Assembly (NCBI RefSeq): GCF_014268595.2
Contig: NZ_CP077091.1
Location: forward strand, 394,501 to 458,500
DNA length: 64,000 bases
Direction: 5' to 3'
Source of the DNA: Pseudomonas hamedanensis
Lineage (GTDB): Bacteria; Pseudomonadota; Gammaproteobacteria; Pseudomonadales; Pseudomonadaceae
This document shows positions 46,415 through 48,733 of the stretch, in pieces. Both the position numbers and the translations under genes were made by a program. How positions within the stretch are numbered: position 1 is the first letter of the stretch; each line of letters begins with the position of its first letter. Under the pieces are notes generated by a model. That model made no database searches, was not told where the DNA came from, and saw nothing but the letters and a program-made list of their open reading frames with translations.

Positions 46415-46433
46415 ACAATCCCATCGTTCGAAT

Positions 46434-46522
46434 GTGGGAGCGGGCTTGCTCGCGAAGACGGTGCGTCAGGCGCTGTGATTTTGAATGTGCCGACCTCTTC
46501 GCGAGCAAGCCCGCTCCCACAA
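46434..46522. repeat. REPIN
   Basis: GTGGGAGCGGGCTTGCTCGC and inverted GCGAGCAAGCCCGCTCCCAC. Confidence 0.88.
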
Positions 46523-46576
46523 GGACGACCAGCCGTCGAGGGGGTGTCGACCCGCTTGTGTCACAGTGGTGGAATC

Positions 46577-46600
46577 TATACTGTATATGCACACAGTATA
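46577..46600 (+). promoter_or_regulatory. LexA (SOS) box before the radical-SAM gene
   Basis: CTGTATATGCACACAG (46581-46596) has the CTG-N10-CAG form and 13 of 16 matches to the LexA consensus. It is extended by TATA on both sides into an 8-bp-arm palindrome (TATACTGT/ACAGTATA). It lies 15 bases before the start codon and overlaps the likely promoter. Confidence 0.78.
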
Positions 46601-46611
46601 GAGCCCGTGCC

Positions 46612-47832
46612 ATGCAAATCATCGACAAGCTCAGCATCCTCGCCGACGCCGCCAAGTACGACGCCTCCTGCGCCAGCAGCGGTGCGCCCAAGCGCAGTTC
46701 CGAAGGCAAGAGCGGGCTGGGTTCGACCGATGGCATGGGCATCTGCCACAGCTACACGCCGGACGGCCGCTGCGTGTCGTTATTGAAGATTTTGCTGACC
46801 AATTTTTGCCTTTACGATTGCCAGTACTGCGTCAATCGCCGCTCCAGTGATGTGCCCCGGGCACGTTTCACCCCCGAAGAAGTTGTCGCGCTGACCATGG
46901 ATTTCTACCGGCGCAATTGCGTCAGCGGCTTGTTTCTAAGCTCCGGGATCATTCGTTCGGCGGACTACACCATGGAGCAACTGGTGCGCGTGGCGAAGCT
47001 GCTGCGTGAGGAACACGAGTTTCGCGGCTATATCCACCTCAAGACTATTCCAGAGGCCGATCCGGCATTGATCGAAGAAGCGGGGCGTTACGCCGATCGC
47101 CTCAGCGTCAACATCGAATTGCCCACCGATGCCAGCCTGCAGACGCTGGCGCCGGAGAAAGACATCGCCTCGATCAAGCAAGCGATGAACACCATCTACA
47201 CCGGCGTGCAGACGGTATTGAACGAGCCGCGCTCGGCGAAATTCGCCCCGGCCGGGCAAAGCACGCAACTGATCGTCGGCGCCGATGACACCGACGACAG
47301 CACCATCCTCCACAGCGCTCAATCCTTATATGGCAACTTCCGCCTGCGCCGGGTCTATTATTCGGCGTTCAGCCCGATCCCCGACAGTCCGAAAAGCGTG
47401 CCGCTCGCCGCGCCGCCGCTGATGCGCGAGCACCGTTTGTATCAGGCTGACTTTCTCCTGCGCAGCTATGGCTACAGCGCAGACGAATTGTTGAAAGGGC
47501 CGGGCAATCTGGCGCTGGATATCGATCCAAAACTCGCATGGGCATTGGCAAATCGCGAGGTGTTCCCGCTGGACCTGAACCGCGCCGAACCGTCGTTGAT
47601 CGCGCGCATTCCCGGCATCGGGTTGCGCACCACCGAGCGCCTGGTCGAGCTGCGCCGCCAGCGCCGCATCCGCTACGAGGATGTGGCGCGGATGCGCTGT
47701 GTACTGGCCAAGGCCAAGCCGTTCATCATCACCAGCGACTACCATCCGCAGCAGGCCGAAGTCACCAGCCATATGCTCTATCAGCAATTGCGCGACCGAC
47801 CGATGCCACAACAGATGGGGTTGTGGGGATGA
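46612..47832 (+). CDS. Putative DNA-modification/repair radical SAM protein
   Basis: 406 residues. Radical-SAM cluster motif C66-LYD-C70-QY-C73, after LTNF; GRCVSLLKILL and SGLFLSSGIIRSADYTMEQL follow. This is the family named in TIGR models as a putative DNA modification/repair radical SAM protein linked to a uracil-DNA-glycosylase-type partner. The C-terminus has a helix-hairpin-helix, LNRAEPSLIARIPGIGLRTT (from about residue 320), typical of DNA binding. ATG 46612 behind a LexA box; overlaps the next gene (ATGA). Real reaction unknown. Confidence 0.88.
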   Translation: MQIIDKLSILADAAKYDASCASSGAPKRSSEGKSGLGSTDGMGICHSYTPDGRCVSLLKILLTNFCLYDCQYCVNRRSSDVPRARFTPEEVVALTMDFYRRNCVSGLFLSSGIIRSADYTMEQLVRVAKLLREEHEFRGYIHLKTIPEADPALIEEAGRYADRLSVNIELPTDASLQTLAPEKDIASIKQAMNTIYTGVQTVLNEPRSAKFAPAGQSTQLIVGADDTDDSTILHSAQSLYGNFRLRRVYYSAFSPIPDSPKSVPLAAPPLMREHRLYQADFLLRSYGYSADELLKGPGNLALDIDPKLAWALANREVFPLDLNRAEPSLIARIPGIGLRTTERLVELRRQRRIRYEDVARMRCVLAKAKPFIITSDYHPQQAEVTSHMLYQQLRDRPMPQQMGLWG

Positions 47833-48650
47833 TCAGTCTTGATTGCGATGATCTGTTCGACACCTGGCGCCAGCAGGCGCGCTGGTTGCTCAGTCATGAA
47901 GTCGACCCGAGTCGGGTGGGCTGGGCGGCGGAAGGGGTGGGCGATCTGTTTGCCAGCGATGAGCGCCTGCCTGAAGAGCAGGGGCCGTTTCAGGCGCGCA
48001 TTCCGCGTGCGCTGCTCGATACCCTGGAGCAGGCGGCACAGTATCGTGGCGAGCAACGCTGGAGTCTTTTGTATGAAGTGCTCTGGCGTGTGAGCCACGG
48101 TGACCGCACCGCGATGATGGCCGGCGACAAACTGGGCAGCGAGCTGCAACGCCGCCTCAAGCAAGTGCACCGCGAGGCCCATCATCTGCATGCCTTCGTG
48201 CGCTTCATCGAGCGACCGGGGGATTTGCCCGGCCCGCAATACGTGGCGTGGCACGAACCGGCGCACGACATTCTGCACAGCGCCAGCGCACATTTCATCG
48301 GACGCATGGGCCAGCACCGCTGGTTGATCGCGACCCCGCGTGACGGGGTGTATTACGACGGCGAACAACTGATTCATCAACGCCAATGCCCCGTCGAATG
48401 GCAGCAGATGGCGCAAAACGTCGACGATCCCCATGGCGATTTGTGGTTGACCTACTACAGCCACATCTTCAACCCGGCACGGTTGAACCCAAAGGTCATG
48501 CAGGGGCATTTGCCCGCGCGGTTCTGGAAAAATTTACCGGAGGGGGAGCTGATTCCCGGATTGATCACCCAGGCGCGGATGGGCAAGCAGCAGAATGGGC
48601 AGGCGAGCGGGATTTCGAGTCGCTCGGGCAAGCGGATCACCTTGAAATAG
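47829..48650 (+). CDS. Probable DNA-metabolism protein (DUF4130 type), partner of the radical SAM
   Basis: 273 residues: ISLDCDDLFDTWRQQARWLL, LLYEVLWRVSHGDRTAMMAG, EAHHLHAFVRFIERPGDLPG, YVAWHEPAHDILHSASAHFI, GQHRWLIATPRDGVYYDGEQ. This fits the protein family that always accompanies the radical SAM gene above; in many bacteria it is fused to a C-terminal uracil-DNA-glycosylase-like domain, which is absent here. Start overlaps the radical-SAM stop by 4 bp, so both are under the same SOS box. Confidence 0.82.
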   Translation: MISLDCDDLFDTWRQQARWLLSHEVDPSRVGWAAEGVGDLFASDERLPEEQGPFQARIPRALLDTLEQAAQYRGEQRWSLLYEVLWRVSHGDRTAMMAGDKLGSELQRRLKQVHREAHHLHAFVRFIERPGDLPGPQYVAWHEPAHDILHSASAHFIGRMGQHRWLIATPRDGVYYDGEQLIHQRQCPVEWQQMAQNVDDPHGDLWLTYYSHIFNPARLNPKVMQGHLPARFWKNLPEGELIPGLITQARMGKQQNGQASGISSRSGKRITLK

Positions 48651-48678: not shown

Positions 48679-48712
48679 AAGCCCTCCATCAATCACTCAA
48701 TGGAGGGCTTTT
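48679..48712. terminator. Bidirectional intrinsic terminator
   Basis: AAAAAAGCCCTCCAT...ATGGAGGGCTTTTT; 11-bp stem with A-run before and T-run after, serving the DNA-metabolism gene on plus and ilvE on minus. Confidence 0.9.
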
Positions 48713-48733
48713 TCGGTATCAACAACAGTCAAC

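Follow-up and report, generated by a model that had tools for sequence, protein, structure and literature searches.

A predicted LexA-controlled pair of radical-SAM and DUF4130 genes without a uracil-DNA glycosylase domain in Pseudomonas hamedanensis

What do two overlapping genes behind a LexA-type palindrome do when the uracil-DNA glycosylase (UDG) domain found in most of their relatives is missing? We addressed this question in a 64,000-nucleotide stretch of the Pseudomonas hamedanensis genome (assembly GCF_014268595.2, contig NZ_CP077091.1, positions 394,501 to 458,500; hereafter the window); the source genome is one contig of 6.05 Mb. On its forward strand the window encodes a radical S-adenosylmethionine (radical-SAM) protein of 406 residues (46612-47832), which matches TIGR03916 at 536.7 bits against a cut-off of 343.5, followed by a 273-residue DUF4130 protein of TIGR03915 (47829-48650). 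An earlier, sequence-only reading of this DNA had described an ATGA overlap between the two genes, and we located it at 47829-47832, where the DUF4130 ATG lies on the radical-SAM stop codon. The explanation that we favour, at a probability of about 0.6, is that LexA represses the two genes as one operon and that their products form a two-protein unit for DNA repair or damage processing, which acts on DNA independently of UDG.

A conserved LexA-type operator

The predicted operator (46575-46602, unstranded) comprises two perfect 10-nt arms, TCTATACTGT at 46575-46584 and ACAGTATAGA at 46593-46602, with 8 nt between them. Between its core CTGTATATGCACACAG (46581-46596) and the ATG at 46612 lie 15 nt, the distance given in the sequence-only reading; that reading set the start at 46577, a position within the left arm of the palindrome, which starts at 46575. 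The simple motif CTG-N10-CAG occurs 22 times in the window against 21.87 expected by chance and was rejected as operator evidence on its own; at this frequency, conservation must decide whether the operator is real. A 20-base pattern written from the operator itself matched the window only here (shuffle mean 0.00, n = 100), a test that is partly circular; independent evidence comes from the boxes of relatives and from those at other genes of the same genome.

Counting the window's own locus, 98 of 99 Pseudomonas-genus loci had the box CTGT-N8-ACAG within one mismatch before the radical-SAM gene, and 60 of the 99 had it exactly, within a span from 130 bases upstream of the start to just inside the gene. 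Gene-body control windows gave 62 of 2520 within one mismatch and 4 of 2520 exactly. The single miss in the genus, L119, has an altered right half. Farther afield, the box was found at 3/3 same-family, 3/4 same-order and 9/13 same-class loci, and before the gene in 18/19 named Betaproteobacteria and 23/30 named Gammaproteobacteria. A more distant group of loci, sampled from the same phylum and taken to be Alphaproteobacteria from its LexA motif, has a GTTC/GAAC-N7 box at 53 of 53 loci, as do 26 of 30 named Alphaproteobacteria (control 7 of 2520); judged by motif, the Pseudomonas-type box is replaced there by the alphaproteobacterial one. Some named records duplicate sampled genomes, and because the locus sets overlap in this way the box counts cannot be summed. 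Misses other than L119 were L022 (Psychrobacter-like), the same-class loci L032, L038, L040 and L130, L197 (Pseudomonas), L225-L227 and L246 (Xanthomonadaceae), L228 and L247 (Rhodanobacteraceae), L244 (Verrucomicrobia), L233, and L230, L248, L256 and L260; the upstream DNA of L044 was too short for the test. TTAG-N6-TACTA, which we take to be the xanthomonad LexA motif, was tried and discarded, with 0 matches across all tested loci.

Within the P. hamedanensis genome, CTGTAT-N6-ACAG marks 15 sites (9 forward and 10 reverse matches), and the reversed pattern, used as a comparison, gave 1 and 2 matches. With the start codons of box-bearing genes assigned by rule, LexA-type boxes lie 10 nt upstream of lexA, 43 nt upstream of a YebG-family gene and across the first ATG of a DUF1654 gene; recA was not among the identified neighbours of these sites. 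Because the box is conserved across relatives and like boxes stand at lexA and other genes of this genome, SOS control of the pair is very likely. The LexA boxes, conserved and specific to each lineage, thus give good support to the SOS control and damage-related role proposed in the sequence-only reading.

Such control has been predicted earlier. We take COG4277 to be the TIGR03916 radical-SAM family. For Bacteroidetes, a study that cites earlier SOS reports for Verrucomicrobia and Alphaproteobacteria placed COG1573-COG4277 under SOS control by inference (PMC8565304), and SOS control was also predicted for CAC3343-CAC3344 of Clostridium acetobutylicum (PMC3828012). An Acinetobacter gene of identical product name is up under desiccation (PMC13130816). 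The radical-SAM gene of a chromate-fitness paper (PMC5554334) was set aside, being NirJ, a different gene.

Three further genes of the genome stand behind LexA-type sequences. The palindrome before topB (topoisomerase III) lies 62 nt upstream of its start (G000:C1:1455503-1455518; L315), and another box (G000:C1:5082707-5082724; L276, L322) precedes a gene for a 105-residue protein that matched neither Pfam nor NCBIfam. The third, 8 nt upstream of its gene (G000:C1:3982144-3982159; L319), precedes a PA0069-family radical-SAM gene (NF033668, 503 bits). Like the window's gene, it encodes a radical-SAM protein and follows a LexA-type box, but its product has no significant similarity to the window's radical-SAM protein (BLASTP E 2.1) and no Pfam helix-hairpin-helix match, and it has no TIGR03915 partner, the genome's only TIGR03915 match being the window's. 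Two dissimilar radical-SAM genes thus appear, from their boxes, to be under SOS control in one genome. The remaining 8 of the 15 sites, located elsewhere, may be chance matches. Separately, an 18-bp palindrome, ACTGTCAGATCTGACAGT, occurs in four identical copies (G000:C1:807567, 1668162, 2269285 and 2275205; L265, L267, L269 and L270), with variants at other places, and looks from its sequence like the operator of a different regulator.

A near-strict pair and a variable UdgX domain

The two genes occur together almost without exception. In the genus (119 genomes), TIGR03915 and TIGR03916 were each found in 92 genomes, by eye the identical 92. Among 398 sampled Pseudomonadota genomes, TIGR03916 exceeded its cut-off in 84 and TIGR03915 in 87: DUF4130 was present in 84 of 84 radical-SAM genomes, and the radical-SAM gene in 84 of 87 DUF4130 genomes. 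The three genomes with DUF4130 and no radical-SAM match comprise one with a truncated DUF4130 gene (G402), one with a disrupted gene (G332) and one with an intact gene (G315).

A few loci depart from the usual layout. No radical-SAM match was found at L179 (G188) and L183 (G172), which keep UdgX and have DUF4130 only as remnants, at L176 (G332), which keeps UdgX beside the disrupted DUF4130, or at L144 (G402), where the truncated DUF4130 has no UdgX. At L180 and L181 (G356, G344) the two genes are not adjacent, about 3 kb separating the radical-SAM gene from DUF4130-UdgX. L178 (G437:C5:277500-281500) holds a second, diverged DUF4130-UdgX gene with no radical-SAM gene in the stretch; G437 additionally carries a normal operon.

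UdgX behaves differently. The DUF4130 protein of the window was found to contain no UDG domain, and its genome gave no TIGR03914 (UdgX) match. The single match to PF03167, the UDG superfamily, is ordinary Ung (TIGR00628, 283.2 bits), encoded 2 Mb from the operon, and the detached UDG-like partner for which the sequence-only reading suggested a search was rejected, as the genome gave no such match besides Ung. In the Pseudomonadota sample 77 genomes had a TIGR03914 score above the cut-off: 62 of the 84 with the pair and 15 without a radical-SAM match. In 61 of the 62 the domain is fused (frameshifted in G271), and in the other it is split by a contig edge (G309). No UdgX over the cut-off was found in 22 of the 84, one of which (G502) has a degenerate fused domain. 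Within the genus, 95 of 99 loci are UDG-less, the domain being present in L056, L093, L106 and L169. The sequence-only reading was thus right that the glycosylase is missing here, but its absence is less of an oddity than was implied.

Where the domain is present, its state varies. The GEQPG of motif A, an R-loop histidine and the HPS of motif B are hallmarks of the self-crosslinking UdgX, whose biochemistry is already known (PMC10359453). Among 120 loci with a UDG part, some of them duplicates, 106 keep all three and 10 more differ in HPS only. In Pseudomonas, motif A and the R-loop histidine are both retained in L056 and L106; L093 reads GDQPG and is without the histidine, and L169 has neither motif A nor the histidine. 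The ratio of non-synonymous to synonymous substitution rates (dN/dS) of the UDG domain was 0.136 between L056 and L106, below that of DUF4130 (0.268), and 0.245-0.311 in two pairs with L093, above DUF4130 (0.166-0.199). General relaxed selection on the Pseudomonas UDG domain was rejected on the L056-L106 value.

On a quick tree of 108 radical-SAM rows (250 before removal of near-copies), built without bootstrap, the fused or UDG-less state changed 14 times, at least 7 of them forced by starred branches, with two contig-edge rows set aside; since the tree has no bootstrap and some UDG-less rows are metagenome bins, the number of changes is approximate. The 'UDG-less' state of L050, L240 and L202 is a contig-edge artefact: L202 was never in the tree, and the second count was made without L050 and L240. 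UDG-less L138 shares DNA just downstream of the gene with the domain-bearing L056, L106 and L093; the same DNA is present in UDG-less L155, L004 and L001 and absent from the window's locus. In that Pseudomonas branch the UDG domain therefore differs at one same place. A deletion scar within the L138 protein was rejected, since the matching stretch continues downstream and also occurs in other UDG-less loci; from its sequence, it is probably the end of a neighbouring gene. Loss is the simpler direction because the domain is present in a sister genus (L143) and in Betaproteobacteria, and we infer loss in the window's own branch as well. Read from these sequences, UdgX has been lost repeatedly, with present, decayed and absent states in Pseudomonas. 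Given the near-strict co-occurrence of the pair and the variable UdgX, the radical-SAM and DUF4130 genes are, on this comparative evidence, close to a unit and the core of the system, and UdgX is an optional module that comes and goes.

The DUF4130 protein matches TIGR03915 at 205.4 bits (cut-off 112.25) and PF13566 at 125.5 (cut-off 27), and its structure model has a predicted local distance difference test (pLDDT) score of 88.8. The alignment, which like the model begins at residue 2, so that position numbers are one below those of the full protein, holds 72 of 74 non-redundant rows (L050 and L178 omitted) and has 18 invariant columns common to fused and UDG-less members. RecJ-type DHH/DHHA1 phosphoesterases, whose fold is a candidate for that of DUF4130, carry catalytic DHH and DxD residues; these were not encountered in the 72 DUF4130 members, whose invariant columns include no Asp and whose nearly invariant D99 and D199 are single and far apart. 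Comparison with RecJ/AlaRS profiles gave no match, but neither did its positive control, so that this result carries no weight, and a sequence search of solved structures returned one chance-level row (E 0.37) and nothing else. In four UDG-less Pseudomonas pairs, dN/dS was 0.050-0.081 for DUF4130 and 0.015-0.052 for the radical-SAM protein, ratios that indicate strong purifying selection on both genes of the UDG-less pair.

Set against known systems, the pair is a further member of an SOS-linked kind already known, in a minimal architecture. Both window proteins exceed the curated cut-offs of the TIGR03916/TIGR03915 systems, but the partner here lacks the UdgX domain present in 62/84 Pseudomonadota genomes with the pair. 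It shares the DUF4130 core and invariant residues with UdgX-DUF4130 fusions ('UdgX family uracil-DNA binding protein'), which differ in having a UDG domain. The UDG-less form is likewise already named, NCBI listing such proteins of about 285-290 residues as 'TIGR03915 family putative DNA repair protein'. Among the papers listed by our literature searches, which covered few subscription journals, none reports the biochemistry of either family, in agreement with the sequence-only reading's remark that their chemistry is undescribed. A radical-SAM gene carried by 84/398 sampled Pseudomonadota genomes, very often behind a LexA box, is thus without reported biochemistry in that literature, and a bare pair in easily grown, aerobic Pseudomonas, with UdgX optional, points to the two proteins on which to concentrate.

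Predicted chemistry and competing explanations

The assignment of the first protein to the radical-SAM enzymes, made in the sequence-only reading from C66-x3-C70-x2-C73 (46807-46830, forward strand), holds: besides the TIGR03916 score, the three cysteines of this expected SAM-binding [4Fe-4S] site are invariant in 38/38 aligned members and, with further homologues, conserved in 157, 158 and 158 of 158. Three extra cysteines, encoded on the same strand, are conserved almost as strictly or fully: C20 (codon 46669-46671; 38/38, and 156/158 with further homologues), C45 (46744-46746; 158/158) and C54 (46771-46773; 158/158). The structure model (pLDDT 82.7) has a barrel nearest HydE, LipA/LIAS and BioB in fold searches, and solved structures searched by sequence gave weak rows only, to the radical-SAM proteins HydG and HydE and to the helix-hairpin-helix proteins RuvA and ComEA. 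The C-terminal helix-hairpin-helix noted earlier (residues 320-350; 47569-47661, forward strand) is upheld by matches in the aligned members, to HHH_3 in 37/38 and to HHH_5 in 30/38, both at E up to 1; the window's own protein alone reaches HHH_3 at E 0.0024, under the Pfam cut-off, and the region gave weak ComEA and RuvA matches.

By analogy with radical enzymes whose second Fe-S cluster binds the substrate, C20, C45 and C54 probably hold such a cluster. MoaA, TYW1, MiaB, RimO and LipA, which have a second [4Fe-4S] cluster on three cysteines, resemble the window protein in their three extra conserved cysteines, and in TYW1 (C-x12-C-x12-C) and LipA these lie N-terminal to CxxxCxxC, as here (PMC5352715). 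The window protein differs from those enzymes in its C-x24-C-x8-C spacing, its helix-hairpin-helix and its LexA box, and in that its cluster is a prediction only. This prediction, which we have not seen in print in the literature searched, is specific and can be addressed by mutation.

In the mechanism that we propose, DNA damage would lead to LexA cleavage and production of both proteins. The radical-SAM protein would bind DNA through its C-terminal helix-hairpin-helix, and its C66/C70/C73 cluster would generate a 5'-deoxyadenosyl radical that attacks the damaged nucleotide directly, while a C20/C45/C54 cluster with an open site would probably bind or activate the lesion, a co-substrate or a group for delivery. 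DUF4130, as the regular partner, would probably present or recognise the DNA. In most relatives the UdgX-type domain may remove uracil and remain covalently attached to the DNA, serving as an optional anchor or adding specificity; its absence in this lineage would leave a working core. The UdgX link suggests uracil, abasic sites and UdgX-DNA crosslinks as first candidate substrates. A bolder form of this proposal, which we offer tentatively, is a two-cluster, SOS-induced enzyme whose C20/C45/C54 cluster binds either a co-substrate or the damaged base itself, while the radical converts the lesion where it stands, a reaction like that of TYW1, LipA or MiaB but on DNA. DUF4130 would then be a catalytically dead, RecJ/Cdc45-like nucleic-acid holder, UdgX an optional covalent anchor, and the UDG-less Pseudomonas pair a new chemistry of direct repair in its smallest natural form.

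Several observations weigh against the two-protein DNA-repair reading. The substrates of MoaA, LipA, MiaB, RimO and TYW1 are GTP, protein or RNA, and the case for DNA therefore depends on the helix-hairpin-helix, the UdgX link and SOS control. Beyond the two groups with good coverage, 17 tested copies are without any of the three box types tried, and box-less copies include those of Xanthomonadaceae, Rhodanobacteraceae and Psychrobacter. The extra cysteines could bind zinc instead, and the model is weak around them (pLDDT below 50 at residues 18-31 and 39-57). In G315 (L182, G315:C184:1-4000) the radical-SAM body is deleted, apparently down to the first dozen or so codons, yet the operator remains and the DUF4130-UdgX gene is intact; a contig-edge explanation was rejected, the gene body being lost. 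Conversely, the Verrucomicrobia bin G513 has a radical-SAM gene and no TIGR03915 match, on a contig that stops 17 bases past that gene.

The substrates of the two-cluster enzymes named above raise the alternative that the pair acts on RNA, such as tRNA, or on a small molecule during the damage response, in the way of TYW1, MiaB or LipA; we regard this as doubtful, since the helix-hairpin-helix, the UdgX domain that the partner carries in most genomes and the occurrence of SOS control in groups with two different LexA motifs all point to DNA. It is unlikely that UDG activity is still required and is supplied in trans: Ung is indeed present, but its gene lies far from the operon, and it is a protein of another UDG family, which we take from family knowledge to be without the crosslinking loop of UdgX. 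The UdgX traits in this comparison are those described in PMC10359453.

A lesion-reversal enzyme of the spore-photoproduct lyase (SPL) type would suit the repair context, and DUF4130-linked radical-SAM proteins have been labelled 'SplB-like' (PMC3765255). The fold-search matches listed include HydE, LipA, BioB and others but no SPL, an absence that proves nothing, and the protein has no significant similarity to the PA0069-family protein, itself no known SPL; we consider the SPL assignment very unlikely. The least probable explanation is that the pair is a decaying leftover, still transcribed after its UDG domain was lost. Such decay would fit the loss of catalytic residues from the UDG domain in L093 and L169 and the truncated or disrupted DUF4130 genes of the radical-SAM-less G402 and G332. 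It is opposed by the low dN/dS of both proteins in UDG-less Pseudomonas, by the operator retained at 98/99 genus loci and by the 18 DUF4130 columns invariant in fused and UDG-less members alike.

Neighbouring features

PADLOC gave no match for the pair at E up to 0.01, no Rfam match was found, a sigma-70 scan returned no promoter-like site, and PHROGs matched the radical-SAM protein only, as a generic radical-SAM protein. The nearest named record to this protein among the matches listed is from Pseudomonas sp. efr-133-TYG-5 (95%). The next gene, ilvE, is convergent to the pair. Between the operon and ilvE, a terminator-like stem-loop (48681-48714, unstranded) was read by eye as arms GCCCTCCAT and ATGGAGGGC followed by T5; the terminator scan did not list it, and its 10-nt loop exceeds the limits of that scan. 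Upstream of the LexA-type operator, a perfect 26-nt inverted pair spans 46433-46521, and its 23-mer GTGGGAGCGGGCTTGCTCGCGAA has 21 matches in the window at up to two mismatches; the pair resembles what we take to be a Pseudomonas REP/REPIN element.

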